This document shows positions 11,068 to 63,260 of a stretch of 64,000 nucleotides of DNA, piece after piece. A program made the position numbers and the translations under genes. The stretch is taken from NCBI RefSeq assembly GCF_039555335.1, contig NC_092646.1:26713780-26777779 (forward strand), read 5' to 3'. The notes under the pieces were generated by a model. It was not told where the DNA came from, did no database searches, and worked only from the letters and a program-made list of their open reading frames with translations. The stretch comes from Amphiura filiformis. Lineage: Eukaryota; Echinodermata; Ophiuroidea; Amphilepidida; Amphiuridae. Positions within the stretch are counted from its first letter, which is position 1. Each line of letters starts with the position of its first letter.

Positions 11068-11492
11068 TGTGACGTGTCATGTCAAAAGGAGACACTTTTG
11101 GGCAGGTTATCAATTTTGAGGTTTTTACATATCTTAAGTTTAGAGATATTTTGCTCCACAACACCGTTTTCCCAATGAAATCGGAGATTCCTAAGCCAAG
11201 ATATTGAGTTTGTAAGTCTTGGTATTATAAAATTGGAAATTGAGATATCGGCCTTTAAAAATATTATTGACAATGCTGAGAGTAGGAATACCTTGACAAA
11301 TGTCTCAAAAAACACAAGATGCCAGTTATATTCCAGTCTGAAACTATCAGACAATATTTTAAACATTAATAACATCACAATTTCAAGCAACAAACCCAAA
11401 TTGTGAAAAAAAATCACCCTGGGCAGATTTTTGGCTATTTCTCCATTTACGATCCTGCCCAAAAGTGTCTCCTTTTGACATGACACGTCACA
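11068..11492. mobile_element. 425-bp TGTGACGTGTCATGTC MITE, copy 1
   Basis: Terminal inverted repeats of about 42 bp (TGTGACGTGTCATGTCAAAA ... GACATGACACGTCACA), flanked by TA on each side. A second full copy of almost the same length is at 61,835-62,258 and an internal fragment is near 47,700. The 134-codon frame inside is an artefact of the repeat. Confidence 0.88.
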
Positions 11493-11826
11493 TATTTTAT
11501 TTGCAGGCTTATGAAAGGCCTATGAAAAATGTGTACCGCAAGATTTTGTTGAACAATATTTTTATAACAAGTCATCAAGAAATTTACTTAAAAAAAATAC
11601 CATATTAATAATTTATAAAACCATTTGCTACAAAAATGGTTCACATTTTCATGTTAGATCATCTAAAACTTCATTCAAATTCAGAGGAAAAAACAGGCTT
11701 TGAAATTATTAATATGCTGCCATAAATGCTGCCATAAATGCTGCAATGGTAATAATTATTAATGACAAAAAGTGCAATGTTGGCATTTTACATTACAATA
11801 CCAGCCTTATCAGTGAATAGAGATCG
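11493..11826. other. No gene seen
   Basis: AT-rich; a short CTGCCATAAATG direct duplication near 11,718. Nothing else supported. Confidence 0.5.
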
Positions 11827-37994: not shown

Positions 37995-38570
37995 CTACAC
38001 AGTGAAATCAGACATCTCTTGACTGAGAGAGTTGCTGGCTAGATGTTGTTTGACACTTTGTTTAAATGCAGACTTGGTAGGCAATCCCTTGATGTTTGAT
38101 GGGAGATCATTCCAGTCCAAAATGGCTTTGTAGTAGAATGTGTTTGAGGCAATACCTTTTACCCTAGGAACAATGAAATTGGATTCACTTGATCTGGTTC
38201 CATAAGAGTGAGCACTTGATGTTCTAGTGAAATTCTGATTAAGATAAAGTGCACCTTGACAATGGTAGATGTTAAAGACATGGTTAAGCCTCAGCTGTTT
38301 AACTCTGTCACAAATTTTCAAAAGATTCACAAGGTTTAGCTCATGTTGCCCAATGTGATCTCTGGGGGAAAGTTTCAAGATGTAACGAGCAACCTTATTT
38401 TGAGTAATTTGCAGTTTATTTTTGTGGTTCTGAGTGAGGCCACTATACCAAGATGTGCAACAGTAATCCATGTGGCACTGAATCAATGCAGAACTAAGAT
38501 TTTTACGCAAAGTTTGATTGAGAATGTGAGAATGTCGGTAGAGGAACTTAAGGCGACCAGAAGCCTTTTG
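37995..38570 (-). pseudogene. LINE ORF2 remnant: C-terminal region after the frameshift
   Basis: In the shifted frame: FLYRHSHILNQTLRKNLSSA, LIQCHMDYCCTSWYSGLT, NKLQITQNKVARYILKL, HSYGTRSSESNFIVPRV and IKGLPTKSAFKQSVKQHL, the usual C-terminal order of CR1/Jockey-type ORF2. Stop at 37,995. Confidence 0.92.
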
Positions 38571-40246
38571 ATGACAGAGTTAACCATGCTTTCACCAGAC
38601 AGTGTATTGTTTATTGAAACACCAAGATACTTGATACTCTCCTGAGATTTGATAACATGACCATCATAGGCAACACAGAAGTCAGGAACTTTCTTTAACT
38701 TAGCTTTGGTGCCAAAGAGTATACATTCTGTCTTGCCAACGTGAAGAGACAGTTTATTATCCACTAACCACTGATTGCAGGATTTAAGATCAGAGCCAAG
38801 CATATCAGCAACAGCCTTGGGGTCTTTGTCATATGCAATGATAACACTGTCGTCCGCATAAAGCAGTAACTTGTTCTGCACTGAAATCTCCATGTCGTTG
38901 CTGTAACACAAATACAACAAGGGGCCCAGCAGGCTGCCCTGAGGGACGCCACAAGTTATAGTTTGGAGAGATGATTTTATTCCATCAATGCAGACAAGTT
39001 GCTTTCTGTTACACAGATATGACTGAAACCAACCAGAGCTGATGCCCATAGCTTCAAGCTTATCACATAATATACTATGGTTGACACTATCGAATGCTTT
39101 CTGGACATCCAGTAACATCATTCCAACATAATTTCCTTGAGAAATTTGGTATTTGACAAAGTCGGTTAAGTATATAAGGCAAGTTTCTGTTGAAAATCCT
39201 GATCTAAAACCAGACTGATACTGATAAATAAGATCTTTATGTGTCAAATAATCCTTAACCTGTACATAAACACTCTTTTCCAAGATCTTTGAAACACAAT
39301 TTAGAACACTCACTGGGCGGTAGTTACCAACATCCAGTTTACTTTTCTTTTTGTACAGAAGGGTGATCCTGGCAGTCTTGAAATCTTCAGGCACAGTTTC
39401 AGTATTGATAGAGAGGTTGACAATATGTGTTATCAAGGGGGCAATTTGAACAGCTCCATCCCTCAAAAATCTGGGGGCTAACTCATCCAAACCCGCACCC
39501 TTCAAAACATTCAAACTGCGGAGCTCCTTGAGAATAAAATCCTCATCAATTGGTCTAAGATTGAATTCACCCTGGGAGACACCTTTATTCTGATAGAACT
39601 GAATAAAGGAGTTTGAAGCTGTGTCATATTGGTTCAAGCCAGCAGGAAGTTTAGAAACCAGGACCGAAGCAACTGAAGTGAAAAATTTGTTAATATAATC
39701 ACATACAGACAAGGTATCATAACACAGTTCACCATCAATGTCCAAAACAATTTTACCCTTAGAGTTTGCTTTAGAGCTATAGCCTAAGTTTTTCAGATGA
39801 GTCCAAAGCTTTCTTTGATCTCCCATGGATTCTTCCAATTTATTCTTGAAAAACGATGCTTTTGCAGCTTTCACTTCCCTCTGGATTTGATTTCGAAAGG
39901 TGGTATAGTCATGATAATCAATACCCGGGGTTTTAGTTATCAACTTTCTACGAATGTTATCCCTTTTTCTAATGCTTTCAAGAATACTTGGAGTGACCCA
40001 GGGTTGGGTTCGTTGTTTTATTCGAACCTGACGCTTGGGAGCAACCTGATCAAGTATATTGACAAAGATTTGTTTAAAGTTCTGGCATGCAGTATCAACA
40101 TTATCACAATTCAAGATAGAAGACCAGTCACAATTTGCAAGTAGGGATCTGAAAGAGTCTATATTGTAGTTCTTAAGAGTTCTTATTTTTATAGTGTTGT
40201 GATTGTTGAATTTAACTTGAGTTGCCTTTCTAGTGAGAATGGGATA
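38483..40246 (-). pseudogene. LINE ORF2 remnant: reverse transcriptase core
   Basis: Contains the RT blocks in order: YRPVSVLNCVSKILEK, QSGFRSGFSTETCL, LLDVQKAFDSVNH (first catalytic Asp), GVPQGSLLGPLLYL and LLYADDSVI (YADD catalytic pair), then KYLGVSI of the thumb. The frame is open over about 590 codons and then shifts near 38,550-38,575 by what looks like one lost base in an AAAAGG run; the true C-terminus continues in the next frame. Such a long open frame suggests a fairly recent insertion. Confidence 0.93.
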
Positions 40247-40259
40247 CTAGCTAGTGAAA

Positions 40260-40580
40260 ACATTGGTGTTCCAATTTTGTCCCGATGTACCCACTATTTT
40301 ACTTAAATTGAAGCTATGTTGTAATCATAAATGATCGAGAAAAACTAATGGTCTACATCCAGCAGGGGATATGTCTGATGTGCTTGTGACAAAATACGTG
40401 AAAACGTCGCTATATCCGAGCCCTTAAGCCAGTTCCTCTAATTTAGAATAAGTTTTGTTCTTTAAAACATAACACAATCAAACATAAAACGAACAAAAAT
40501 ATGTAATGTTTTCACAGCACAGTTATCATGGTTATGTTTTCTGTTTAATTGTTACTGACCATGATTACTATACTTCCTTG
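40260..40580. other. Intergenic, no gene
   Basis: Between the LINE and the first Ig gene promoter region. Nothing recognised. Confidence 0.5.
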
Positions 40581-40680
40581 TACGGTTTCGAAAGTTATAT
40601 TATTATAAACCCGGGATTGTAAAAAAATCCACAGTATGAAACTATGCATCTCTTACTTCCATGGCGGCACTAAAGCGATC
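40574..40680 (+). promoter_or_regulatory. Putative promoter region of Ig gene 1
   Basis: CTTCCTTGTACGGTTTCGAA then AGTTATATTATT at 40,573-40,603, followed by ATCTCTTACTTCCATGGCGG. The same blocks in the same order precede Ig gene 3 (48,752-48,910), and the TTCGAAGGATATAAA variant precedes Ig gene 2. The TATA-like core sits about 235 bases before the ATG. Confidence 0.5.
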
Positions 40681-40831
40681 ATTGCAGAAGGGAAATGTTT
40701 GGGATATGACATTGTGAAATAATTTATATGACTTGAATTTTAATCACGATTAATAACTCATTCGACTTTTAGTTCTTCTGTTGGCAGGTCTATAAATCCT
40801 AGCATCCGTTAATCTCACCGTAAAATCAGTT

Positions 40832-42268
40832 ATGGGAATCACGACTGAGCAAGTGGTAGTTACCATGGTTACCTTGGTTTTCTTATTGTCCTTCATTGCT
40901 ACTAATTGTTACGGATACTCGATTGATCAACTGGTTCATGTCTATCCGGCAGATCTAAAGGAAGGTGATGCAGTTGTAATTTACTGTGCGTCATATGATG
41001 CGTATAGGCCTATTGGCAACCTAGACATAGTTTGGAGTAAAGACGGCGATGAGCTCACAAGAAATGGTACTTTTATTGATGAAGAACTTGACAAACGACC
41101 TGACATTGATCTGTTATACTATAGGTATGAAAGCTACATTACAATAGGCAATGTTTCCCGACGTGACAGTGGCAATTACACGTGTAGTGTACATCATCGA
41201 GGTGAAAAGTATTCTGTGGCGGCAGAATCTGTAATACTTAATGTTTTGTATTACCCTAAAAGCGAGTTTCCTTTATGCTCAGTAAAACCAGTGACACCAA
41301 ACTCTCAGTTGACATTGTCATGTTTGTCAGAGATGGGCAACCCTGCAGTGTCTGTAGATTGGGAAATTCAAAGCGCACAAGTGCAAGTCAATGGAGTTCC
41401 TTCAACAACCAATCAAGAAGACGAGTTTGTAACATCTGAAATTAAGATTACCAGCACACATATTAGAAGCTCGGACATGTTTACATGTTCTTTGAATAGC
41501 TCAGAGTTTTCAATTTCTCGGAAATGTTCCTTGTATGGATATTCCATTTTATACGCAATACATGTGATACCATCGTCTTTAAGTGTTAACGACTTCGAGA
41601 AAGCAGAATATTCTTGCAAAACCAACCTGACTCATGTCATTCCAATTAAAAGGGTATGGGTTACAGAACCAGAAGTTCCTCAATCACGAAGGTTTACCTC
41701 AGACTCAGCCTTGCGGATCGAACCCGTGCTTGCTGAAGATAATGGTACCTTGGTAACATGCTTTGCCTTGTTTGAGAGCAATACTGTAAAAGCGGATGCC
41801 AATCTATGGGTTAATTATGACGACAATTCCTCCGTTAAATCCACAACAACGGAGACAGAACAAGGTGACTCTGCAACTCAAGAAGAACACAAAGGTGGAT
41901 CTGCCACAGCCTGGTTTACAATGTTTGTGGTCGTTTTGATTTTATGGATCATTTCTATTGCCTTTGGTGTTATCTGGTACAGAAAGGTAAAGAGCGCAAA
42001 GTCGTCGTCGCCAAAAGCATCGTCTCAGAAAGATGAGCCACAAGGAAAGGTTGATGACCAAGGGAAAACACAAACAAACGGGGAAAACTATATGGATTTG
42101 AGTCCTGAGCAAAGGGCTTCTGAGGTTTACACAGACCTCAATTTGGAAGGAGCAGTGTCGACTCAGTACACAAATAAGGGATGCGTACACGAGACCATGA
42201 GAGGCCGTAATGTTGATGTGGAAATTTATGATTATCCTGAAGATGACGAGGTATATTCAAATATATAG
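40832..42268 (+). CDS. Ig-superfamily receptor 1: three Ig domains, TM, ITAM-like tail (intronless)
   Basis: 478 residues in one exon. Hydrophobic signal sequence 8-27 (TMVTLVFLLSFIATNCYG). Ig domain 1: C52, W68, D112-S-G-N-Y-T-C118. Ig domain 2: C164, W177, C219. Ig domain 3: C262, W276, C310 preceded by EDNGTLVTC. Several N-glycosylation sites (NGT, NVS, NYT, NSS, NLT). Stalk rich in Thr/Glu, TM about 361-383 (FVVVLILWIISIAFGVIWY), then a basic and Ser-rich start of the tail. Tail tyrosines: Y420-MDL and Y433-TDL spaced YxxL-x9-YxxL (ITAM-like), Y446-TN and Y475-SN (YxN, Grb2-SH2 style). Type I plasma-membrane receptor, probably signalling through SH2 proteins after phosphorylation; ligand unknown. 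First of a tandem array; closest relatives are the next two genes. Start chosen because it aligns with the paralogues. No one-to-one named orthologue recognised. Confidence 0.9.
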   Translation: MGITTEQVVVTMVTLVFLLSFIATNCYGYSIDQLVHVYPADLKEGDAVVIYCASYDAYRPIGNLDIVWSKDGDELTRNGTFIDEELDKRPDIDLLYYRYESYITIGNVSRRDSGNYTCSVHHRGEKYSVAAESVILNVLYYPKSEFPLCSVKPVTPNSQLTLSCLSEMGNPAVSVDWEIQSAQVQVNGVPSTTNQEDEFVTSEIKITSTHIRSSDMFTCSLNSSEFSISRKCSLYGYSILYAIHVIPSSLSVNDFEKAEYSCKTNLTHVIPIKRVWVTEPEVPQSRRFTSDSALRIEPVLAEDNGTLVTCFALFESNTVKADANLWVNYDDNSSVKSTTTETEQGDSATQEEHKGGSATAWFTMFVVVLILWIISIAFGVIWYRKVKSAKSSSPKASSQKDEPQGKVDDQGKTQTNGENYMDLSPEQRASEVYTDLNLEGAVSTQYTNKGCVHETMRGRNVDVEIYDYPEDDEVYSNI

Positions 42269-42420
42269 AAATGGAACAAACTGCGTGGGATCTTGATAAA
42301 GCAGAACAATAATTGTAAAGGCCAAGTAATAGTTGTATCTCGAGCTCCATAATAATAGTTTGGTGAGCTCTACATGCAATATAACAGGGATGGACTTTAC
42401 ACATGCCTGGACGCCAGTGA
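42269..42420 (+). other. Conserved 3' flank of Ig gene 1
   Basis: GGGATCTTGATAAAGCAGAA, CGAGCTCCATAATAATAG and GTTTGGTGAGCTCTACA match the sequence after Ig gene 2 (46,040-46,110), showing that the duplication unit includes 3' UTR. No AATAAA is seen close by. Confidence 0.6.
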
Positions 42421-42990
42421 CTTATGTATCTTTGATGTCGGGTCTGCTTATAGTAGCCCGACTGGCGTGTGGCATTTTGACCCTCATACAGTCATAGTAT
42501 TGGCAATTTCAATTATTTGATATCATAGTAATGAATGATATTGATATGGTATTGGCATAATACGTCTCACACGTCGCCTCCCAATAATGTGGGGGACTTG
42601 CACTTCGTCCTTAACCAGTTGGTCCGTTACCCACGGCGTCCTAAATCCTCAAACATTATCCATTCACAACTTTGATCCGTAGGTTTCTAAAACAGATACT
42701 ACTATAACTTCGGAGGCATGTGTTGTTTCAATCGCTCAGTCAGGGTTCGGTTTTTGCCGGCAAAGTGGCAAAAACGGGCAAAAACCTGTTTTTGCCTGGT
42801 TTTAACAGAAAAAAAATGGCAAAACTCATATATAGTCACTCAAATATTAAAAAGTAACACAGAAAGCTCATAAACAGTAACACACAACTTTCAATGAATC
42901 ATTCAACATATTTTGAAAAAGTTTTGAATTTGATATGCCACATCAGTTAAATGCACTAGTGAGCAATGAAAACGCATGCCTTTAATTGAT
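42421..42990. other. No gene seen
   Basis: A short palindromic-looking stretch GGTTTTTGCCGGCAAAGTGG repeats the word GGCAAAA around 42,755-42,830. Otherwise unremarkable. Confidence 0.45.
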
Positions 42991-43005
42991 AGATACAACG
43001 AAAAG

Positions 43006-43230
43006 AATGAGCAGTAAGACGAGAAGGAAACTTGTAAAATCATGTGATTTTTGTTTAATTGATCCAAAAACGGTTGATATCTGTGTCAAAAACAACAAGG
43101 AAGAGAGATAATCAGTGAGCAGAGAAGAAAACTTGTAAAATCATGTGATTTTTGTTTAATTGATCAAAAAAAGGTTGATATCTGTGTCAAAAACAACAAG
43201 GAAGAGAGATAATCGATGAGCAGACAAGGA
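43006..43230. repeat. 101-bp tandem duplication
   Basis: GAGCAG...AAACTTGTAAAATCATGTGA then TTGATATCTGTGTCAAAAAC and AAGGAAGAGAGATAATC occurs twice, offset 101 bases, with the start of a third copy (GATGAGCAGACAAGGAAATT). Confidence 0.85.
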
Positions 43231-44394
43231 AATTTGTTTCAGTTTTCATTTACCCATATGTCTATGTAACCTAAGTTGGGATTTAACACAAATTTCCTTA
43301 TTGTAGAGGAAGCTTGTTATTATGACGACAATGAAAATGTAATTCTTTCGAATCAAAAGAATACAATCCAAACTTTTTCACCAGATTATGTTTTTACCCG
43401 TGATAACAGATGTTCCGTAGATAAGCTGTGTTATAATGTGTATGCATTGATTCAAGTTATATGTTAACGCGAAAGTTTTATTTTAGCAAGTAATCAATCA
43501 CAAACATCAGGCCGTTGCAACTCATATGCTAGCGCAATACAAAAAGGTGGCGACAGCGTCGGCTTTCCCTGTGTATTACCCTGCACTAACATGGCGTCCA
43601 ATGGCGTCTCCCGGGCAGGGGGCCATTTTGGAAAAGTAAAGAAAAATGCTGCTGCCACCACGATAGTACTAAAAGCTACGTAAAAAATATGCGTAGTGCT
43701 GTGGAGACTTACTTTAACATGACGTCACGAATATGCTAATTAAAGAAAAATGCTGCTGCCATCTACGTCCACATGTTGCAAGCGTGACGATCGCCTGGCC
43801 TCACGTCGACGAACGGAGTTTCAATTCCATCGCACTACGTGCTCTATATACTTATTCCATGCAAACATTTCAAGCAAACATTTATACAGTACCAGTTTAT
43901 GCGTTTTTTGTGTTGAAGACACAGAGAAGAAAATAACTATCAAATAATTTGTAGTAATCATTATATAAAAGCAAATACTGCATTGTGTAGGCAGTGGCCT
44001 ACATAATTCCTATTGGACTTTAGCTGCATTAATTGAGAAGGGGAACAAGACAACATTAAACATTACCACAAAATTGTAAAGTATATATCTATCCTGTTTG
44101 AGATATGGAGTAATTTGAGGCCAGTTTCGATGTAAGAAATGTTTGACCAATTCGACCATGACTTATTAATGGTTAAATCGTAAAGGATTATGGGATTTAT
44201 CGAAATGGTCAATTGACTATTTGAAAATGGTATCCCCTTAAAAAAGGAAACTTGTATTTGCAAAATAGTTCCTCATTTTTCTGCACTACCCCATTATTAT
44301 TATTATGATTTTGATTTAGTTTCGTTTGATGCTCCAAAGATCGTGGGAAAATAAGTATACATTTAATTAGCTATTATATAGTCCGTAGTGATCA
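43230..44394. other. No gene seen
   Basis: Direct repeats AAAGAAAAATGCTGCTGCCA at 43,639 and 43,743. TTATGGGATTTATCGAAATG with GGTCAATTG (44,189-44,218) is a relative of the hairpin at 55,274-55,402. No coding region supported. Confidence 0.5.
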
Positions 44395-44420
44395 AGTTCG
44401 AAGGATATAAAACTACATAC
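44395..44420 (+). promoter_or_regulatory. Putative promoter core of Ig gene 2
   Basis: AGTTCGAAGGATATAAAACT: the TTCGAA(A/G)G(T/A)TATA motif shared with Ig genes 1 and 3, here with the best TATA box, about 115 bases before the ATG. Confidence 0.5.
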
Positions 44421-44516
44421 TTCCTGGTACACCACAAGGGAGATAGTTAGAAAGCGGTTTTGCTACGAATACTAGTCCAAATTAGAAAAAATTGCACCTT
44501 TTTGAACCGTACAATA

Positions 44517-46028
44517 ATGGCAAACACAAAGCAAGTTGAAGTTATAGTATGTATAATTTTTTGGATTATCATTGCCATAACAGCGTCTTACCATTTTGAT
44601 TATGCGTACAGTGATCCGACAAATCCAAGGGAAGGAGAGGCTACTGCATTTAGATGTGAATGGGGAGCCAACAACCATGACATTGTCTTGAGTAAAGATG
44701 GTAATAAACTCATTAGAAATGGCATGATCGTCAGTGACGAACTTAAACAACGATCTGACATACGTCTGGAATATGACGACAACCATGATGGTTTAAATGA
44801 ACTTTGTCGTTATAGTATATTGGGGCATACTTGCCTAGTAATGACAATAGGCAATACATCGAGAGATGATAGTGGTAATTACACCTGTAGCATACATGAT
44901 CGAGGTAGTGACTTTCCTCTAGATGTAAGATCTTTTACAGTAACTGTTTTGTATTACCCTAACAGAGAATTCCCCATTTGTTCAGTAAAACCAGAGACAG
45001 CCAGGTCACAGGTGCCATTTTCGTGTTTTTCAGAGATAGGCAACCCTCCAGTGTCAATGAATTGGGCAGTTGAAAGTGAGCAAGTCAACGACATTCTTCC
45101 AATAACTAATCATTATGACGAGTTTGTAACATCTGAAATTATGATTACGAGCACACAGATTAGAAGTACGGACGTATTTACATGTTCGTTGAACAGCTCA
45201 GAGTTTTCCATTTCTCGGAAATGTTTCTTGTATGGATATTCCATTTTATACGCAATTTTTGTACTTCCACCATCCTTAAGTGTTGACGTCTTAGGAAAAG
45301 CAGAATATACATGCATAACCAACCCGGCTCATGTCATTCCAACTAAATGGATTTGGACAACAGAACCAGAAATTCCGCAATCACGGAGGTTTCGTTCTGC
45401 AGCAAGCTTGCGGATCGAACCCGTACTTGATGAAGACAATGGTACCTTGGTAACATGCTTTGCATTGTTTGAGAGCAATACGGTACGAGCGGACGTCCAT
45501 CTATGGGTTAATCATCATGATTATGACGATGTGGACCCTTCCGCGAACATGGTGACAAAACAAGGGGGCTCTTCTGCTCAAGATGAACAAGGTGACTCTG
45601 CTACTCAAGAAGAACGCAAATGGGGTTCGACCACAATATGGATAGCAATGTTTGTGGTCGTTTTGATTTTATGGATCAGTTCTGTTGCTATCGGTGTCAT
45701 ATGCTACACAAATGTCAAGAACGCGAAGTCATCGTCGCCACAAAAAGCATCTCAGAAAGATGATTCACAAGAAAAGCTTGGTTATCAAGGAAAAACAAGA
45801 AATGACGAGGATAACTATATGGCTTTGAATCCTGAGCAAAGGAACTCCGAGGTATACACAGACCTCAATTTGGAAGGAGCAGTGTCGACTCAGTACGTAA
45901 ATAAGGGATGCGCACAAGAGACCAAGAGAGGCGGTAATGTTGATGTAGAACTTTATGATTATCCTGAAACGAATGAATCAAAAACAGTTACCAATGATGA
46001 CGAAGTATATTCAAATGTAGAAATGTAA
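44517..46028 (+). CDS. Ig-superfamily receptor 2: three Ig domains, TM, ITAM-like tail (intronless)
   Basis: 503 residues from the ATG at 44,517, chosen because MANTKQ aligns with MGNTKQ of gene 3; the frame is open further upstream but without a better ATG. Signal sequence about 8-24 (VEVIVCIIFWIIIAITA). Domain 1: C47 and C124 with the DDSGNYTC motif, but the core Trp of domain 1 is Leu (DIVLSKDG versus DIVWSKDG), and an insertion adds C97 and C106. Domain 2: C170, W183, C223. Domain 3: C266, W278, C314. TM about 374-396. The tail keeps Y434-MAL, Y447-TDL, Y460-VN, Y480/Y482 and Y498-SNV, plus an 11-residue stretch (ETNESKTVTND) missing from gene 1. Stalk longer, with a repeated QGDSATQEE-type motif. 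Role as for gene 1; the altered domain 1 may change ligand binding. 69-70% of the membrane-proximal part is visibly shared with gene 1 by eye only. Confidence 0.9.
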   Translation: MANTKQVEVIVCIIFWIIIAITASYHFDYAYSDPTNPREGEATAFRCEWGANNHDIVLSKDGNKLIRNGMIVSDELKQRSDIRLEYDDNHDGLNELCRYSILGHTCLVMTIGNTSRDDSGNYTCSIHDRGSDFPLDVRSFTVTVLYYPNREFPICSVKPETARSQVPFSCFSEIGNPPVSMNWAVESEQVNDILPITNHYDEFVTSEIMITSTQIRSTDVFTCSLNSSEFSISRKCFLYGYSILYAIFVLPPSLSVDVLGKAEYTCITNPAHVIPTKWIWTTEPEIPQSRRFRSAASLRIEPVLDEDNGTLVTCFALFESNTVRADVHLWVNHHDYDDVDPSANMVTKQGGSSAQDEQGDSATQEERKWGSTTIWIAMFVVVLILWISSVAIGVICYTNVKNAKSSSPQKASQKDDSQEKLGYQGKTRNDEDNYMALNPEQRNSEVYTDLNLEGAVSTQYVNKGCAQETKRGGNVDVELYDYPETNESKTVTNDDEVYSNVEM

Positions 46029-46149
46029 CCAAATGCATGGGATCTTAAAGCAGAACAAATTGTGTAGTTTTATCTTGAGCTCCATAATTGTTTGGTAAAC
46101 TCTACACGCCATGTGCAATGCTTATTTTTGAAAAGTTCGGCCTTCATCT

Positions 46150-46593
46150 CAGGGGCTATTTTAACGTGCCTCCTGGCACGTTTGTGCAGTAAGATTAAAA
46201 ATCTGTGCAGTGAGAATTACAAATATATTTAAATCCGTGTCAAATGAGCAGAAAATGACGTTTTCAGCGAAATAAGACCGAGTCACAGATCCTACGTAAA
46301 AATGAGTATAGTTTTCCTCTCAGTAAACAATTTTTTTTATAAAATCAAAAATTGCTTTATAACGTTTCTGGAACACTTGTCAAAATTGTACGGTGACGCC
46401 AACAGTTACTCCGTTTCTCCCTGTATTTTTCTGTAGGGAATGCCTCGAGACGAGATCAGAGGCGTACCGATCGGGGAACTCAAGACTACCACCCTCGACC
46501 CCGAGTCCCCCACTCCGATGCAAGCACTGCGACAAAAGTGTATAACTACACCTGCCGACGTGCAGTGACCTTTTATGAGTAAAATAGCCCCTG
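46150..46593. mobile_element. hAT-like non-autonomous element with 8-bp target duplication
   Basis: Ends CAGGGGCTATTTTA and TAAAATAGCCCCTG; the exact octamer CTTCATCT flanks both sides (46,142-46,149 and 46,594-46,601). CAGGG-type ends plus an 8-bp duplication are hallmarks of hAT elements. 444 bp, no ORF. It lies just 3' of Ig gene 2. Confidence 0.9.
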
Positions 46594-46601
46594 CTTCATC
46601 T

Positions 46602-47690
46602 TGTCAAATTATGTCTTTTCGCCAGCCCATTCGGGGCTGGTACCTGTTTCAGGTTTGGGGTCAGTTTTTTCAAGAGATTATATTTTAGTGGTATTGGAAT
46701 GATTTTTTTTTTTTACTTTTTGTTTTTAAATTTTTTTTTAAATATTTTAATTCGATTTGTTAGGAAAAGTAAGTATGTTTTGCCGTTTCAACGAACGAAA
46801 ACGAGTGAGTATTATTAAAGTTATGTTTGAACTAATTAATTATGACTTTAAAAGTTTAAAGGCCTAAATGTAACAATAATAGTTAATATATACAGCATCA
46901 TATGGTCAGCAGAAGAAAATCTGACAACACCTATGATGTCATATCAGTGTCCTTGACCGGGGGTCCGTACTCCTTGACCACTGCACAGCGTCATATCATG
47001 CTGATAACAGATCTATAGAATCAAAATCTTCATCATATCCCGGATCATATCACAGATTCTCAACAATCTGTGATCATATGGACCATATTGATGTGAAAGT
47101 AGTTATCTATCATATCCTGTGTCGTTTTATGGATAAAATGACTCAAAATGTTATTGATGAAATGGTTGCTATCATAAACATCAGTTTTGTCTTTTCAACG
47201 GGAAAAATCCGATGCAAAATAAAGTTTTTAGGGCCTAGCTATAATATGGGCATAATTTATGCATATAGTATTGAACAATGTACCCCATTTGACATGCACT
47301 TATAGATAAATAAATTGTCTTACTTTATTAATTTAATAACTTCTTTATTATAAATAAAATGACACATAACTATTTGATTCATAAAATTACATTCAACAAA
47401 ATGATTGAAGAGAAAACACACAAGGCACTAGGCAGACTGTTATAGAATGGAGTATGTAAGATGCCATGTCCATAGCTTCGCAGGAGTTTCCGACTAGCAA
47501 TCAACATGATCAGCACATTCAGAAAAACACAGTTTAAGAGTGAAGATTGTAGTGAGTACTGAGTAACCAGTCCTTTATAAATGTGCTGGCCACTATCTAT
47601 TATAATATAGTAGGCTTAAACTATACATTGCGAATTAATTAAGTTATTTTAAAATAAAATGTACATGTAAGTTAACTCAAACCGGCAGTG
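46602..47690. other. No gene seen
   Basis: Holds a hairpin ATCACAGATT-CTCAAC-AATCTGTGAT (47,049-47,074) within CATATCACAG/ATCATATG repeats. A 75-codon frame at 47,078-47,305 has no recognised motif. Confidence 0.5.
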
Positions 47691-47699
47691 TATATATCG

Positions 47700-47785
47700 A
47701 AAGCAGTGAAATCGGACATTCCTAAGCGAAGATATTGAGTTCGTAAGTTCTGGTATTACAAAATTGGAAATTGAGATATCGTGGG
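47700..47785. mobile_element. Internal fragment of the TGTGACGTG MITE
   Basis: GAAATCGGACATTCCTAAGC then GAAGATATTGAGTTCG and AAATTGGAAATTGAGATATC match the interior of the copies at 11.07 and 61.84 kb. No ends remain. A GTT/AAC microsatellite (47,816-47,843) follows. Confidence 0.8.
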
Positions 47786-48225
47786 TAAAAAGCTGAAAAG
47801 ACAAAAAACCCAACGACAACAACAACAACAACAACAACAAAACAAACAGACCAGAACAATTTGGAGTACATGTAATGAATTAAAAGAGTTGACATGAGAT
47901 TAGGAATTAATGTTTTCTGCTGTTTCAGTGTGCATGTTCTCATCGTTGATGGTTTGGTGGACTGTCATGTAGATGTAAGCGTGATCCTAAAAATGCCTTT
48001 CACATTGACCAAAACTAATTACAAGACCTCTTCTACATTGAGGCTGGCTTTCCCTTTTAAAGGGAATTTTTATTGTACAATAGCGCTTAGGCTTTTTCAC
48101 GATGGCGAAACTATAGGCTATTATAATTTGTAAATATTTTGGAGTAGATCCGAGGGTGCGGAGGGGGGCTAGACTCAGAGAGCACCACGTTTTAAACAGG
48201 TTATATTTTGTGTTTTTGGTTTTGG

Positions 48226-48512
48226 TAAAAACGTTTTAATAACAATAAATGTCGGGTTATATAAAGGTCATGAAAACATTCCAAAACGTTCTATATGAAA
48301 ACACATTGCAAAAATATTTTTTAAATGTTTTCAAAATGTTATTGAAAAATATTTTCTGCAAACATTTTTTGCCAAATATTTTGTCAACATTTAATAACGA
48401 TATGTTAGAGTGTTTACAGTGGGTTATCAAAAATATTTTCAATGTTATGAAAACGTTTTTATATCCTTTATATACCCTTTATATAACCCGACATTTAAAC
48501 GTTTTCTAACAA
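48226..48512. mobile_element. AACGTTTT/ATGTCGGGTTATATAAAGG MITE
   Basis: Left AATGTCGGGTTATATAAAGG and right CTTTATATAACCCGACATTT are inverted, with AAACGTTTT at both outer edges and many AAAATATTTT and AACATTTT words inside. No clear target duplication. Confidence 0.75.
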
Positions 48513-48751
48513 CCTTTTCTAACCTTTTGCGAATGATGTCGAAAACAGTTTGTGTTTGCTGGGGGGTGCATATTCGCCCCGGTGAAAATAATATGGGTCT
48601 GTAAAAAGTAGTGAATCCGCAGTTGGGTCTTGTCTATAGATTAGTTGTTGACATTAATATTTTGTGGTTTAGTGAACCGAATAAAATAAAATTACAATCA
48701 TTACAACAAATATTTGCATGTTCTTATTTTGGTCAAGGTCAATGATTTTTA

Positions 48752-48790
48752 TTTCCTTGTCGTACAGTTTCGAAAGATATAACTACTACA
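48752..48790 (+). promoter_or_regulatory. Putative promoter core of Ig gene 3
   Basis: TTTCCTTGTCGTACAGTTTC then GAAAGATATAACTACTA, matching the block before Ig gene 1; ATCTCTTACTTTCATGGCAG follows at 48,891-48,910 as in gene 1. About 290 bases before the ATG. Confidence 0.5.
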
Positions 48791-49057
48791 TTGTATGTAG
48801 TACGGGATGTAGTAGTATATATTAAGACAAGTAGTATATATTAAGTATGCATATATAACTACTTTACTTCCCATGGAACTTTGAGGAACAATCTCTTACT
48901 TTCATGGCAGCACAATATGAACTAAACTATAAAATCGCGACTTTTCACGATTAATATAAAGTCAGTTTACTTCGACTTCTGGCAGGAGTATGAATCTCAG
49001 CATTGTCATATTCATAGAGTTGTCCTTAACATGCTTAATCTCACCATAAATACAATA

Positions 49058-50242
49058 ATGGGGAACACGAAGCAACAGGTGGGAGTTTGTTTTGTTTATT
49101 TGACGTTCTGCATTTCAACTTCTTGTTACGGATACTTTATAGATTATGTTTTAGTCACTTCGACAGACCCAAAGGAAGGTGGTACAGTTACATTTTACTG
49201 TAGGTCATATGATGCATTATCCGACAACCTAGACATAGTTTGGAGTAAAGACGGCGATGAGCTCACAAGAAATGGTACTTTTATTAATGAAGAACTTGGA
49301 AAACGATCTGACATTGACCTATCATACTATCATGACTTTGGGCATGGAAGCTACCTTACAATAGGCAATGTGTCCCGACGTGACAGTGGTAATTACACAT
49401 GTAGTGTACATCATCGAGGTGAAAAGTATTCTCTGGCGGCAAAATCTGCAATACTGAATGTTTTGTATTACCCCAGTAGTGAGTTTCCTTTATGCTTAGT
49501 AAAACCAGAGACACCATACTCTCAGTTGACATTGTCCTGTTTGTCAGAGATCGGCAACCCTGCAGTGTCAGTAGATTGGGAAATTGAAAGCCCCCAAGTG
49601 CAACTCAGTGAAGTTGATTCAACCATCAGAGTCTATGATTCAACAAGCAATCAAGAAGAGGAGTTTGTAACATCTGAAATTACGATTACGAGTACGCAGA
49701 TTAGAAGCACAGACATGTTTACATGTTCGTTGAACAGCTCAGAGTTTTCCATTTCTCGGACATGTTTCTTGTATGGATATTCGATTTTATACGCGATACT
49801 TGTACTTCCACCATCCTTAAGTGTGGACGTCTTAGAGAAAGCAGAATATACATGCATAACCAACCTGGCTCATGTCATTCCAACTAAATGGATTTGGGTT
49901 ACAGAACCAGAAGTTCCTCAATCGCGAAGGTTTACCTCCGACTCAACCTTGCAGATCGAACCCGTACTTGCTGAAGACAATGGTACCTTGGTAACATGCT
50001 TTGCGTTGTTTGAAAGCAATACGATACGAGCGGATGCCAATCTATGGGTTAATTATGACAACCATTCCTCCGTTAAATCCGCGACAATGGAAACAGAACA
50101 CGGCGACTTTGCAATTCAAAAAGAACGCATACGTTATTCTACCAGAGTCTGGACAGTGATGTTTGCGGTCGTTTTGCTTTTATGGATCAGTTCTGTTGCC
50201 ATCTTAGGTGTCATCTGGATATACGAAGTCGTCTTGGCCTAA
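49058..50242 (+). CDS. Ig-superfamily receptor 3: three Ig domains and TM, cytoplasmic tail lost by frameshift
   Basis: 394 residues from ATG 49,058 (MGNTKQQ). An in-frame ATG 27 bases earlier lies in what is the 5' leader of gene 1 (AATCTCACC), so I prefer the inner one. Domains: D1 C48, W62, C115; D2 C161, W174, C223; D3 C266, W278, C314; TM about 364-387. Just after the TM, compared with gene 1, a small deletion shifts the frame and the protein ends IYEVVLA. The sequence downstream (50,245-50,518) still encodes the homologous tail (ENYMDLSPEQ, EVYTSLNLEG, TQYVNKE) in another frame, then has a 5-base insertion and a TAG where gene 2 has a Tyr codon. So the ectodomain is intact but the signalling tail is gone: either a decoy or adhesion form, or an early pseudogene. 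The domain 1 region is nearly identical to gene 1 at DNA level. Confidence 0.8.
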   Translation: MGNTKQQVGVCFVYLTFCISTSCYGYFIDYVLVTSTDPKEGGTVTFYCRSYDALSDNLDIVWSKDGDELTRNGTFINEELGKRSDIDLSYYHDFGHGSYLTIGNVSRRDSGNYTCSVHHRGEKYSLAAKSAILNVLYYPSSEFPLCLVKPETPYSQLTLSCLSEIGNPAVSVDWEIESPQVQLSEVDSTIRVYDSTSNQEEEFVTSEITITSTQIRSTDMFTCSLNSSEFSISRTCFLYGYSILYAILVLPPSLSVDVLEKAEYTCITNLAHVIPTKWIWVTEPEVPQSRRFTSDSTLQIEPVLAEDNGTLVTCFALFESNTIRADANLWVNYDNHSSVKSATMETEHGDFAIQKERIRYSTRVWTVMFAVVLLLWISSVAILGVIWIYEVVLA

Positions 50243-50244
50243 AG

Positions 50245-50518
50245 AATCGTCTCAGAAAGATGAGTCAGAAGAAAAGGTTGATAACAACTTAGGGAAAACA
50301 AAAACAGACGGGGAAAACTATATGGATTTGAGTCCTGAGCAAAGGGCCTCTGAGGTTTACACAAGCCTCAATTTGGAAGGAGCTGTGTCAACTCAGTACG
50401 TAAATAAGGAATGCGTACAAGAGACCCGTTGAAGAGAGGCGGCAAAGTCGATGTGGAACTTTATGATTATCCCGAAACGAATGAATCAAAAACTATTACC
50501 AATGATGACCAAGTATAG
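50245..50518 (+). pseudogene. Out-of-frame remnant of the Ig gene 3 cytoplasmic tail
   Basis: Encodes GENYMDLSPEQRASEVY and TQYVNKECVQETR in a frame different from the gene 3 CDS, stopping at TGA near 50,430 where an extra CGTTG is present relative to gene 2. Further on, VELYDYPETNESKT is recognisable again in the shifted frame, with a stop replacing the last tyrosine. Confidence 0.85.
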
Positions 50519-50553
50519 TCAAAAGTAAAAATGTAATAATGTGTATGGGATGT

Positions 50554-50559
50554 AATAAA
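50554..50559 (+). terminator. Poly(A) signal AATAAA after Ig gene 3
   Basis: TGTAATAAACATG, about 36 bases after the old tail stop. Likely 3' end of the gene 3 transcript. Confidence 0.45.
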
Positions 50560-50619
50560 CATGAGCAGGAATGCTTTGAATTGAATAGAAAATATCGCGG
50601 GGATAGTAATATTTCAAGG

Positions 50620-51699
50620 GAATTTGCAGTATGTAGACATGACAGATAAAAAGCATGGATATGTTTGCATGTTCTTTGAGCACCTCAGAGTTTTCCATTC
50701 CCCGCATTTGCTCCATGTATGGGCATTCGATATGGAATAAGCTGGAATACATGTATCGTCCTTGCGCATTGAAGTAACCGGTAGTGGAGAACATAATTTG
50801 CAAAACCAATGTTACTATTATGTGATTTCTATTAAATGGTTTTGGGCAACAGAGCCAGAAGTTCTTCAAACACAAAGGTTTGTTTCCGACTCAACCTTGC
50901 GGATAGAACCCGTACTTGCTTACATTGGTGGCGGAACCGGGGTGGGGGGGGGGGGGGGTGTCCAGTACCTACTAATTTTTCGACCGGAAGACTGCCCCTC
51001 CCCACCTCCCCATCCCCAACTTTAGCCAAACCCATAATATGATGTGTGTCACATGTCTGGGTGAACATAAATAATCAATTCTCTATTCTATACCCTGAAA
51101 GGAAGTGTAAAAATGATATACCAAATGGCTTCAATTGAACCTTCATTTTGCAAAATTTTCCAACCCCCCGTGTATGGATAAACAAATCCCCTTTTCGCTT
51201 CTGCTTTGGACACCGAACACTATATATGTGTTTAGGCAATATAGTGAAAACTTGTCCACGAATGACTTCGCGACCATTATTCATATCTTTCAAAATCTTT
51301 CCGCCACCGCTGCTTGCGGTCAGAAGACAACTATACCTTGATAACATCTGGATGACTCTGTTTGCAGTCGCTATCACTTTATTGACCATCTCTAGTGCCT
51401 TCAATGTCTTCTGGTACAGAAAGGACAAGACCACAAAATTGCAGACGAAAGAGGATTCATCTCAGAAGGCTAAAGATGAGCACCAATATCATGGAAAAGC
51501 AACAACTCCAACAGAAGCTAACAGATGGCGAGAAGTACATAGATTTGAATCCAGACCGCAATACCTTTCAGGTTTACACAGGACCCAATTTGAAGGGAAA
51601 GGAGACTACTCAATAATTACTCATCGAAATGAGGCGTCTCAGGGAAATGCTGATATGGACCTAAGCTATGATTATGCCGATACGAATGTACTATAAAGA
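50620..51699 (+). pseudogene. Ig-superfamily receptor 4, broken pseudogene
   Basis: Homology to genes 1-3 begins in Ig domain 2 (GGATATGTTTGCATGTTCTT, CTCAGAGTTTTCCAT) and runs through domain 3 to GAACCCGTACTTGCT, with several frame changes. It is then interrupted by an insertion (about 50,920-51,312) and resumes GCTTGCGGTCAGAAGACAAC ... CCTTGATAAC. A deletion then jumps to the TM (MTLFAVAITLLTISS). The tail survives in another frame as GEKYIDLNPDRNTFQVYTGP and a final MDLSYDYADTNVL. The N-terminal half is missing. Confidence 0.85.
50920..51312. mobile_element. Insertion disrupting Ig pseudogene 4
   Basis: Ends carry inverted GGTGGCGGAA and TTTCCGCCACC; the host motif CTTGC stands on both sides, consistent with a short target duplication. 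The G-tract and C-rich interior has no ORF of note. Confidence 0.6.
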
Positions 51700-51754
51700 C
51701 GTTCAAATGCTAATGAAGACACCGTTCAATGCCGGGGGAGTGGGAGTTAATAAA

Positions 51755-52550: not shown

Positions 52551-53188
52551 TTAAGGGTGGGGGTATGAACGTTTGTACAGTATTTATTGTGGGACATAAG
52601 AGCACATCAGACATATCGAATTGCATTCTGAATACGAAGAATGTCCTGATGATATCAAATAATTTTGATTTTTTGAAATTCGCATTGTAATACACATTTT
52701 ATGGCAAATGATTAAAATTGATATTTTTGATATTTAACAGTACTCGAAGTAAACTTTATAAATCTGATGATTTATACTTAAAGTGTATGTAGGTGGGATG
52801 AAAAGCCGATGATAAATTGACGATATGGATTTTTTTTCAAAAAACACCAAAAAAAAGGTCTTTTTTGGGAAAAAAATCCATATCTTCAATATGAAAGATC
52901 AAAATTTTCAATTGATCATCGGCTTTTCCTCCCAGCTACATACACTTTAAGAATATGTCATTAGATTTATATAATTTATTTCGAGGACTGTTATTATATC
53001 AAAAATGTGAAAAATATCAAATTTTAATAATTTGTCATAAAATTTGTATTTTATCGTGAATTTCAAAAAATGAAAGTTATTTGATATCCGAAAGACATTC
53101 TTCGTATTCAGAATGCAATTCAATATGTCTGATGTGCTCTCATGTCCCACAAAACATACTGTCAAAACGCTCATTCCAGATCCCTTAA
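52551..53188. mobile_element. 638-bp foldback element bounded by TTAA
   Basis: Left TTAAGGGTGGGGGTATGAAC, right inverted AACGCTCATTCCAGATCCCTTAA. The arms include GTGGGACATAAGAGCACATC and TGATGTGCTCTCATGTCCCAC. The flanking TTAA could be a piggyBac-like target duplication, though a TA duplication is equally possible. A half-copy is at 4,864. Confidence 0.8.
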
Positions 53189-55483: not shown

Positions 55484-56944
55484 TTAAAACTTTGAGTTTG
55501 CTTCTTCAGCGGCAGCTTGCTCAGCCTTGCTGGGGCTTGTTAAGTTGGTCAACCCTACGTCAGCTGGTGGTGCATCTCCATTGGTGTCATTTTGAGGCAA
55601 CATTTCTTCCGATTGACTATCGGGGTTCGCAAACGGTTTTCCGGGAAATCTCTTCATGAGTCTATAAATACCAACAATAGCGGTTCCTTCTATCATGGAA
55701 AACAAGTAATACAAACACGGTCCTCTCGCGATTAGATCTGCTTCGGGTTGCGGATAAGACAGCTGAGACAAAGCTAACCCAACCAGAGCGTTTTGATAGC
55801 CAGTCTCAATTGCTACAGTTATGGCGGAAAGATTATCGAGGCATGCCATCTTCGCTAAAAGTACTCCAAAGGCCGAGCCGATGAGTGGAAGGACGATACA
55901 GGCAAGATAGACCTCTGGTGGGGCCTGGAATGCGTAAATGAACACTGGAATACCGAAACCCAGACTGATTATTATCAGCAATAGAGAAATGGGTCGAAGA
56001 ACAATCTGCAGGATCTTAGTGACTTTTGGTAGCTTGTAATAACAAAAGATACCAATCAGGATCGGAATGACGAGCAATATCAGTGAGATGACCAGATTTT
56101 CAAACGGTGTTTTAAGACTCTCGTTTCCTGTCGTAAATTCTCGTCCATATAAATAGATGTTCAAAGGCATGAGGCCGAAAGCGATGAATGACGACACAGC
56201 GGTCATGGTAATGCTTAAGACTAGATCACATTCCATTAGAAGTGTTATAACATTGCTGACATATCCACCGGGGCAAGAGGCGATAACGATTAATCCAACT
56301 GCAGATTCATTGTCAAGATTGGCGATTTTCGCCACAGCGTAGGCGACGAGGGGCATGACTATGAACTGGGAAACAGCACCAATGATGACGCCCCACGGCC
56401 GTCGAAGTCTTTTCCAAACTTCCCGCCACTTCATATTCACTCCCATTGATATGTATGCAACAAACAAAAACACTACTAGAGTATACGTGAAAATTGAACT
56501 CAAAATGGATGGCTTCTGAAGAACTTTGACTCTCAATGGATTGATAGTGTTCTTGGGAAGATCAACATTAGACGCAATGTTTGTTACTTCAAAAGTCAAA
56601 TTTCCAATACCGATAAAAATACCTTGAAGAACAAACGATAAGCTGTGATTCGCCATCAAATCAGGATCTTCAATTCCTACTACTGTCGGCATGAGCTGAA
56701 AAGTTGCATTTCCACCAACAACGAAGAAATCTGGATGCTGACTCTTCAATTCAATTTGTGTATCTGACTTTATCCCTGATATGGTCATGTTGACTATCAA
56801 ATACTCTCCAGCAGTGACCGTGACCCATTCAGATTCTTTGGAGTAACCGGGGGAATAACTTACTGTTAATGTTCCGCAAACCAAACTAAGATAGCCAGTT
56901 AGCAATAACAGACATATCAATAGCGTACCATGAGCCATTGTCAT
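55484..56944 (-). CDS. SLC10A3/SLC10A5-like solute carrier (sodium/bile-acid cotransporter family), intronless
   Basis: 486 residues, one exon, minus strand. Signal peptide 1-24 (LLICLLLLTGYLSLVCG), then a beta-rich extracellular N-terminal domain of about 125 residues with N-glycosylation sites (NMT, NAT, NHS, NLT), then the SLC10 membrane domain from about 150 on. Key motifs: CPGGYVSN at 224-231 and ETGYQN at 380-385, the two family signatures around the sodium and substrate sites (Glu380 and Gln384 correspond to conserved ion ligands). Membrane spans fill 150-430, followed by a polar C-tail rich in Glu, Asn and Ala. The long N-terminal domain and single coding exon are features of vertebrate SLC10A3 (P3) and SLC10A5 rather than of NTCP/ASBT. 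Substrate unknown; the family moves organic anions or is orphan. The ATG at 56,944 gives a good signal peptide; a second ATG two codons on is equivalent. Confidence 0.92.
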   Translation of the reverse strand: MTMAHGTLLICLLLLTGYLSLVCGTLTVSYSPGYSKESEWVTVTAGEYLIVNMTISGIKSDTQIELKSQHPDFFVVGGNATFQLMPTVVGIEDPDLMANHSLSFVLQGIFIGIGNLTFEVTNIASNVDLPKNTINPLRVKVLQKPSILSSIFTYTLVVFLFVAYISMGVNMKWREVWKRLRRPWGVIIGAVSQFIVMPLVAYAVAKIANLDNESAVGLIVIASCPGGYVSNVITLLMECDLVLSITMTAVSSFIAFGLMPLNIYLYGREFTTGNESLKTPFENLVISLILLVIPILIGIFCYYKLPKVTKILQIVLRPISLLLIIISLGFGIPVFIYAFQAPPEVYLACIVLPLIGSAFGVLLAKMACLDNLSAITVAIETGYQNALVGLALSQLSYPQPEADLIARGPCLYYLFSMIEGTAIVGIYRLMKRFPGKPFANPDSQSEEMLPQNDTNGDAPPADVGLTNLTSPSKAEQAAAEEANSKF

Positions 56945-57408
56945 GTGTTGCTTTGTGGAGTCAGACTGGACAAGATTCAGCTTTGAAATGGTAAATGATA
57001 CCCGAGTTTGCGTGTCGCCTCCTTTAGTTTACAACTTATTGTTCCAATACGATTAGCAGGAGTAGCTCGCAGAGTAGAATACGAAGCAAGGTGTTAAAGC
57101 CGGAAAAACAAGAAAGGATATATACAGCGGTATATATATATATTATATATACGGTATTCTATAGTATAGTATGCTGCTTGTGGTACACAGTATGGCATAA
57201 AACGGGTAATGACGTACTCAGCCGGAAACGGCATAGTACAATATATTGGTTTACTGACTTTCTTTTGAATGTGCGTATTTAAGCATGACTATTCTGTTTT
57301 TCATGGTCGAATCCAACGAAAAGTGTACACGGCATGTTCAGGACCATAACTTAAAAGTATTAATCAATTGGCATTCGTTTTTGTATTGTGTTTATTCGCC
57401 TTGATCAT
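56945..57408. other. 5' flank of SLC10-like gene; TA repeat
   Basis: Upstream region on the minus strand. (TA)n at 57,130-57,151. No clear TATA box or shared motif. Confidence 0.4.
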
Positions 57409-61834: not shown

Positions 61835-62258
61835 TGTGACGTGTCATGTCAAAAGGAGACACTTTTGGGCAGGTTATTAATTTTAAGATTTTTACATATC
61901 TTAAATAAAGAGATATTTTGCTCCACAACACCGTTTTCCTCAATGAAATCGGACATTCCTAGGCGAAGATATTCAGTTCGGAAGTTATGGTATTATAAAA
62001 TTGGAAATTGAGATATCGGCCTTTAAAAATATTATTGACAATGTTGAGAGTAGGAATTAACTTGAAAAATGTCTCAAAAAATACAAGATGCCTGTTATAT
62101 TCCGGTCTGAAACTATCAGACAATATTTTTAACATTAATAACATCACAAATTTGCAACAAACCCAAATTGTGAAAAAATCAATCGCCAGCAGATTTTTGG
62201 CTATTTCTCCATTTATGATCCTGCCCAAAAGTGTCTCCTTTTGACATGACACGTCACA
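61835..62258. mobile_element. 425-bp TGTGACGTGTCATGTC MITE, copy 2
   Basis: Same ends as the 11,068 copy and TA flanks (61,833-61,834; 62,259-62,260). The interior matches base for base over long stretches with a few indels, so the two copies are fairly young. Confidence 0.9.
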
Positions 62259-62260
62259 TA

Positions 62261-63260
62261 TTAGGAATTTCCATTGAATAAACACGGCTTTCAAAAGTTG
62301 TATTTGATACCAACCGCTATCGTATTTCACATATTTCAAACTACAACGCGAACCCACAACCTTGTACAATACTAACCAATCCTGAGTTACGCACGCACAG
62401 TCGCACACGTAGTGTATATAGGCCTATACGCAAAAAAATTCAGTGTCACGCTATATCAGGCTGTGTTCATTCAATTGACATTTTCACTGCAGATCCTATC
62501 TCAAGACTGATGGTAATGAACTTTTACAGTGGTACCCAAAATACACAGGGAACACTTTGGTAAAACAGAGACAAAGGGCATTTATATTCTGAATGATGTA
62601 AAATCAAAAGGGCCATTCATTCGTCGGTTCACTCATATTTGTGACACTTGAAAATATTGGAAATTTTACCATGAGTTGTTATAAAATATAGAAAGCTTGT
62701 AAGATATCAACCCCTCAAACTTTGGAAGAACCCTCAAGGAGGCTGGGGGTGTGCTGCTTTCAGTGCTTTCATAATTTCATCTAGCCTGTGAAAGTTTTGA
62801 GGTGTTATTGTTTTGCTTATGAGTGTTAAATTAAATGCAAGAAATGAATTTGCAAATCACAAGAACATGCTGATCGGCTGAATGCACAATCACCAGCACT
62901 TTCTCTACTTGCTACTTTAGTCTATTCTACACTATAGTAGTAATAGTATGGGCAGTTTAAGGGCACAGACTATAGGAATAAAGACCAATCGAACATATTC
63001 TTGTTTATGCCATAATATTGTAGTCTTTCAACCCTTTCATAACTTCAGCTGTGTAACTTACGAAAATTCCCGCTAAAAAGTGGTTCTTTTAATTTTTGAA
63101 AATCTGGATTTTTCGTACTGATCATACTATAATGATCACCAGACAATAATGTTCTAATCACACTATAGACTGTGTTGACATGAGACGTCAATTGCCAGGC
63201 AATTTCGGTCATATGCCCACGGATATGTTATGTTCAGTACGGTGTACCATGAGGAACATG
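62261..63260. other. No gene seen
   Basis: No supported features. Confidence 0.55.

Follow-up and report, generated by a model that had tools for sequence, protein, structure and literature searches.

A tandem cluster of single-exon immunoglobulin-type receptor genes with conserved ITAM-like tails in the brittle star Amphiura filiformis

In a 64-kb stretch of the genome of the brittle star Amphiura filiformis (contig NC_092646.1, positions 26,713,780 to 26,777,779; referred to here as the window, whose own numbering is used throughout) four copies of a receptor gene lie in tandem on the forward strand. Copies 1 and 2 are intact single-exon genes for single-pass receptors of the immunoglobulin (Ig) superfamily, the cytoplasmic tails of which carry two YxxL motifs separated by nine residues, in the manner of an immunoreceptor tyrosine-based activation motif (ITAM); copy 3 is broken in its tail and copy 4 is a pseudogene. 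With moderate confidence we propose that the copies represent a tandem family evolving by birth and death, whose members would be self-contained receptors signalling via docking sites for the SH2 domains of Syk-type kinases and Grb2-type adaptors. Recruitment of these two partners by the tail is predicted from motif rules, and a use of the receptors in immune cells is plausible by analogy.

Copy 1 (40832..42268; 478 amino acids) and copy 2 (44517..46028; 503 amino acids) are each encoded by one uninterrupted open reading frame (ORF), and their proteins are identical in 281 of 475 aligned columns (59%). In copy 3 (49058..50242) the ectodomain and the transmembrane (TM) helix are open and a stop codon follows about seven residues past the helix. 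In the remnant of its tail (50226..50533) the ITAM stretch YMDL-x9-YTSL (at about 50226-50427) lies in one other frame, out of frame with the copy 3 ORF; a second frame change after this stretch leads back to the first frame, where the codon for the tyrosine of the terminal YSN is a stop. The tail was judged to be broken from its reading frames, with inspection of the stretch by eye. Of copy 4 there are pieces of Ig domains 2 and 3 in two frames (50643..50920) and pieces of the TM helix and the tail (51348..51718), in which the remnant YIDL-x9-YTGP sits in a different frame from the TM helix. A tblastn search of the window with four family proteins revealed no fifth copy, the best match away from the known four having E = 0.14. 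An earlier description of this DNA, made by a model from the letters and their reading frames (the sequence-only reading), had announced a tandem array of ITAM-like receptors, namely three paralogues and one pseudogene with a common signal sequence, three Ig domains, TM helix and tail. The tandem arrangement is borne out by the ORFs of copies 1 and 2 and by the four copies in the window; only two of the copies are intact, and the common layout holds for copies 1 and 2 and not for copy 3, whose tail is out of frame.

The copy 1 protein starts with a signal peptide region (40832..40915, residues 1-28, boundary approximate; hydropathy peak at residue 8), followed by Ig domain 1 (D1; 40916..41245, residues 29-138, boundaries approximate; best stretch in Pfam Ig_3 residues 42-121), a CD80-like C2-set Ig domain 2 (D2; 41246..41539, residues 139-236; C2-set_2 at E = 2.3e-6 when searched by itself), a divergent Ig domain 3 (D3; 41540..41821, residues 237-330) and an uncharged TM helix (41903..41977, residues 358-382; hydropathy 2.81). 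Hydropathy plots of copies 1 and 2 show a hydrophobic peak at the N terminus and a single strong TM peak in each, and in copy 2 there is an extra, marginal peak in the ectodomain (1.61 at residue 242). The whole copy 1 protein matches Ig_3 with an E value of 1.1e-12, and D1 and D2 are recognised as Ig by Pfam models. Searched singly, neither D3 of copy 1 nor that of copy 2 matched a Pfam model at E <= 10, and D3 of copy 3 had just one match of E = 0.093; a profile from the eight D3 sequences of the family, described below, matches Dscam chains (E = 2e-8), and five of the eight members match Ig_3 in D3 at E <= 1 (best 9.7e-5). By Ig-fold profiles the proteins belong to the Ig superfamily, D3 being recognised only via the family profile and in some members.

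The sequence-only reading had advised structure prediction and profile searches, and had stated that an assignment of the copies to a known adhesion family as ordinary orthologues would speak against it. Only generic Ig models exceeded the Pfam cut-offs. The two AlphaFold models have a mean predicted local distance difference test (pLDDT) score of 50.4 and 50.6, with low confidence in the D3 region and confidence limited to parts of D1-D2. A Foldseek search of the PDB yielded 1943 matches at E <= 0.001, of which the best 50 are antibodies with TMq <= 0.28. Because the models are poor and the listed matches are antibodies with such low TMq values, the receptors were not placed in any family by structure.

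Activating receptors that depend on an adaptor of the DAP12/FcRgamma type are marked by a charged residue within the TM helix. Copies 1 and 2 have no such residue; the helix is devoid of D, E, K and R in seven of the eight aligned family sequences, copy 3 having an R at the outer edge. The earlier view of the receptors as self-contained is supported by the uncharged helix of copies 1 and 2.

In the tail of copy 1 the ITAM-like pair YMDL-x9-YTDL (42089..42139, residues 420-436) is followed by a YxN motif of the Grb2 type (YTN; 42167..42175, residues 446-448), by YDYP (42227..42238, residues 466-469) and by the terminal YSNI (42254..42265, residues 475-478). Copy 2 has YMAL-x9-YTDL (45816..45866, residues 434-450), YVN (45894..45902, residues 460-462) and the terminal YSNV (46008..46019, residues 498-501), with YDYP again between YVN and YSNV. 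YxN is described as a Grb2 site in the work on a fish receptor discussed below (PMC3528668). The spacer of nine had been regarded as unusual in comparison with a usual one of 6-8; the ITAM definitions given in two papers, two YxxL with 6-12 residues between them (PMC3528668, PMC6433993), include nine, and the spacer was therefore dropped as a special feature. When four of the tails were shuffled, YxxI/L-x6-12-YxxI/L arose by chance in 0.6, 0.6, 2.2 and 0.7% of cases, respectively. The stronger argument against chance is the conservation of the motifs among relatives.

Such relatives were found in protein-database searches. The closest, P0003, is an 'uncharacterized protein' of A. filiformis that is 84% identical to copy 1 over 91% of copy 1 and carries the same tail motifs as copies 1 and 2. 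A. filiformis being an ophiuroid echinoderm, this agrees with the assignment of the DNA to an invertebrate deuterostome in the sequence-only reading. In the NCBI model of P0003 the first approximately 95 residues resemble the stalk, the TM helix and the start of the tail of copy 2, and the remainder is copy 1-like; the model probably joins two neighbouring receptor genes, and this apparent fusion indicates that gene models generated automatically in such clusters may not be reliable. Further relatives are P0004, P0005, P0006 and P0007 (39-42% identity). P0004 and P0006 (the latter without D1) are each encoded by a contig 13,689 bases long, perhaps one and the same, and are then perhaps tandem neighbours. 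A fish protein, P0008, gave generic Ig matches (E = 1.6e-5, with 25% identity across 26% of the query). Beyond P0003-P0007 and this fish protein no homologues came up, which is a weak negative result since the search needs shared words of five residues. Among viral contigs there were 110 pattern matches, none of which encodes a relative of the family.

A pair of the form YxxL/I-x6-12-YxxL/I, with a spacer of nine, is present in the tails of copies 1 and 2, P0003, P0004, P0006 and P0007; it is missing from P0005 and out of frame in copy 3. Conservation of the distal tail was counted in these six proteins, P0005 (no alignable tail) and copy 3 (out of frame) being excluded; from the alignment for domain divergence the first 98 residues of P0003, which look like part of a second gene, had been removed. 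In six of six distal tails, three of them from the relatives of about 40% identity, the spacing is exactly x9, and Y466, Y468 and P469 (copy 1 numbering) are unchanged. All six distal tyrosine columns are invariant, as compared with 22 of the 63 ungapped columns (P = 0.001), and so are all eight motif positions listed in the sequence-only reading, given identity of copies 1 and 2 (22 of the 48 columns in which these agree; P = 8e-4), P values which are only indicative because the six tails cluster in about two groups and so lack independence. The juxtamembrane part is hardly conserved, with 3 invariant columns out of 24. What distinguishes the distal tail is the identity of the positions kept, not their number. 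Conservation of the tail motifs, whose absence the sequence-only reading had listed among the points that would speak against it, is found in relatives.

Between copies 1 and 2 the outermost Ig domain, D1, is the most diverged one, with 45 of 104 residues identical (43%) versus 69% in D2, 72% in D3 and 77% in the distal tail; just the signal peptide is lower (22%). Nonsynonymous differences between the two copies are more frequent in D1 (87/239) than in D2 and D3 together (65/437; P = 4e-10), and synonymous differences are more frequent in D1 (33/73) than in the distal tail (6/43; P = 5e-4) or in D2, D3, TM helix, juxtamembrane part and tail pooled (57/214; P = 0.005), as judged by Fisher tests in which fractional substitution counts were rounded and sites were treated as independent. 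The gradient at silent sites suggests gene conversion or a crossover that has kept the inner part and the tail alike. Between copies 1 and 3 nonsynonymous differences are weakly more frequent in D1 (36/241) than in D3 (17/214; P = 0.03), and synonymous ones do not differ between these two domains (P = 0.30). The ratio of nonsynonymous to synonymous substitution rates (dN/dS) of copies 1 and 2 is 0.56 overall at a dS of 0.45. For D1 it is 0.72, 0.91 and 0.56 in the three copy pairs, and positive selection in D1 is therefore not demonstrated. Copy 3 is nearer to copy 1 across D1 and most of D2, nearer to copy 2 over residues about 203-277 (91-92% versus 84-87%) and again nearer to copy 1 over residues 278-302 (93% versus 81%), an identity pattern which by itself fits a mosaic of copy 1-like and copy 2-like sequence.

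In the mechanism we propose, ligand would be bound by the outer Ig domains, and clustering of the receptor would lead to phosphorylation of the tail by a Src-family kinase. The doubly phosphorylated YxxL-x9-YxxL would then recruit a Syk-type kinase via its tandem SH2 domains and the two YxN sites would recruit Grb2-type adaptors, the outcome being an activating signal for which no partner chain is needed. Candidate signalling partners exist in echinoderms, since Syk, Grb2 and Src-family kinases are listed in a sea star egg transcriptome (PMC11593052), and for the fish receptor G6f-like (G6fL) signalling through both ITAM tyrosines has been reported (PMC3528668). It is these partners and this precedent, together with the 6-12 range of ITAM spacers and the lack of a distal tail tyrosine fitting an immunoreceptor tyrosine-based inhibition motif (ITIM), that favour an activating, partner-free receptor.

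The motifs can be read differently. The proteins could be adhesion or scavenger receptors in which YxxL acts as an endocytic YxxPhi signal and YxN provides a link to Grb2/Ras, rather than ITAM receptors: YMDL and YTDL fit YxxPhi too, and the profile matches include the adhesion molecules CEA, Dscam and Robo alongside many antibodies. Endocytic motifs, however, need no fixed pairing, and here the exact spacing of nine has been retained in every alignable tail next to a juxtamembrane part that has hardly been conserved; we hold this explanation to be unlikely. Nor do we give much weight to an inhibitory receptor, with tail tyrosines recruiting SHP/SHIP phosphatases or with the pair acting as an inhibitory ITAM. 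ITAMs sometimes do act in this way (ITAMi; PMC6433993), and the oyster receptor CgIgIT2, which according to a review bears an ITAM, is named as an inhibitory receptor in the title of reference 93 of that review (PMC11999971). But the ITIM consensus [SIVLT]xYxx[ILV] fits no distal tail tyrosine of copies 1 and 2 and P0003-P0007, the sole matches in the tails being IWYRKV and ICYTNV, both at the membrane. Very improbable, in our opinion, is a decaying and little-expressed array without present function, of which the intact ORFs would be recent leftovers. Two of the four copies in the window are indeed broken, yet copies 1 and 2 have kept 478 and 503 codons open at the dS given above, with an overall dN/dS of 0.56, and three of the four relatives of about 40% identity have retained the same tail motifs.

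Several points weigh against the activating receptor that we favour. YxxL motifs also serve endocytosis. In the number of invariant columns the distal tail as a whole does not surpass D2 and D3 (22/63 versus 30/84 and 34/90), and the tails counted come, as said, from about two groups. Between copies 1 and 2 the distal tail has a dN/dS of 0.85 from few changes (6 synonymous and 18 nonsynonymous), and pairwise constraint on it is therefore not demonstrated. Mutation of the YxN tyrosine of G6fL was without significant effect in a reporter assay (PMC3528668). Finally, copy 3 has lost its tail, as read by frame, and P0005, one of the five relatives, ends soon after the TM helix with a short tail lacking the ITAM; P0005 and copy 3, which if expressed would be nearly tailless, are possibly decoys or simply products of decay.

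Among the known systems compared, human FcgammaRIIA is an antibody receptor that has two Ig domains, lacks a YxN/YDYP array and differs in its spacer, which is 12 residues rather than nine. As in copies 1 and 2, the ITAM is part of the receptor's own chain and has a long spacer (YMTL-x12-YLTL) (PMC6433993). The sequence-only reading knew of no named family with the layout found here; a named analogue is the thrombocyte collagen receptor G6fL of fish, likewise a single-pass Ig protein with its own ITAM and a Grb2-type YxN site (PMC3528668). It differs in having four Ig domains and YxN before the ITAM (PMC3528668), and is likened by layout, not by sequence: the name G6f or G6f-like is absent among the database matches listed (60 of 342 in the profile search), no G6fL sequence having been compared directly. 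A hemocyte glycoprotein of the ascidian Halocynthia, involved in phagocytosis and aggregation, is also an ITAM protein from an invertebrate deuterostome; it has two ITAMs, and it is likened here by motif and cell type (PMC5465252). CgIgIT2 is, according to the review mentioned above, an invertebrate Ig superfamily receptor with an ITAM that recognises microbes; in contrast to copies 1 and 2 it has five Ig domains, comes from a mollusc and is linked to inhibition by the reference title (PMC11999971). For shrimp Dscam a predicted ITAM, given as YXXL, has been reported (PMC6851185). In the main text of the brittle star genome paper, as far as available, the word 'immunoglobulin' was not found (PMC11310086), and in the openly licensed literature searched no description of the family was recognised.

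With G6fL, FcgammaRIIA and the ascidian and oyster proteins as precedents, we regard the family as a new form, narrowly found so far, of a functional kind that is already known. Discussions of echinoderm immunity usually centre on expansions of Toll-like receptors, NOD-like receptors (NLR) and scavenger receptors. Brittle stars may, independently of vertebrates, have evolved intronless, self-sufficient Ig immunoreceptors of fast turnover, with a uniform composite tail (ITAM, two Grb2-type sites and YDYP), a diversifying outermost Ig domain and tailless copies as possible decoys, a proposal which we regard as tentative and rather doubtful. If true, the family would be an echinoderm counterpart of the clustered Ig immunoreceptors of vertebrates. 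A conserved single-chain ITAM-like Ig family outside the chordates would provide a compact test of the age of Src-Syk-Grb2 receptor signalling, and of whether Ig clusters with diversifying outer domains and common tails have arisen repeatedly.

The coding regions of copies 1 and 2 are free of introns, as read directly, a statement limited to the coding part. From this the sequence-only reading had deduced an ancestral retrocopy that was then duplicated with its flanks. For the retrocopy the intron-free coding region is the only sign seen, and such an origin is a guess; a poly(A) tract, a target-site duplication and an intron-bearing parent were not noticed, no systematic search for them having been made. 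Duplication with flanks holds for short ones: of six flank comparisons, copies 1 and 3 upstream and copies 1 and 2 downstream beat every shuffle, copies 2 and 3 upstream reached no more than the 95% level, and the remaining three fell short of it, the shuffles preserving base composition only. The upstream flank common to copies 1 and 3 (40709..40805) has 65% identity over 98 columns, and a longer, weak match of the two upstream regions is above all shuffles; the downstream flank common to copies 1 and 2 (42277..42380) is clear to about 42380 and weaker beyond. Such short flank homology is consistent with a compact unit having been duplicated in tandem as DNA.

On the opposite strand a reverse transcriptase (37995-40246; RVT_1, 6.5e-37) is encoded by a 587-codon frame; a frame of 194 codons with no Pfam match overlaps it and may continue it, and together they are perhaps a long interspersed nuclear element (LINE) just upstream of copy 1. 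This LINE-like frame starts 586 bases upstream of copy 1 and is circumstantial with respect to a retrocopy. Downstream of the cluster there are nested inverted repeats (52551-53188) with arms of 169 and 100 bases that are 85% and 84% complementary, perhaps a mobile element.

Elsewhere in the window, an uninterrupted, intronless frame of 514 codons on the reverse strand (55484-57028) encodes a protein similar to sodium/bile acid symporters (SLC10-type; Pfam SBF, 1e-38). A 33-base tandem repeat occupies 199-895 and 1926-4388, the second array being open over 775 codons (YLLLIAYYFIN repeats), and looks like a satellite rather than a gene. Two similar frames on the reverse strand (11082-11519 and 61959-62423), both with DVSCQKETLLGRI-NGEIAKNL and without a Pfam match at E <= 0.01, are probably copies of one repeat.

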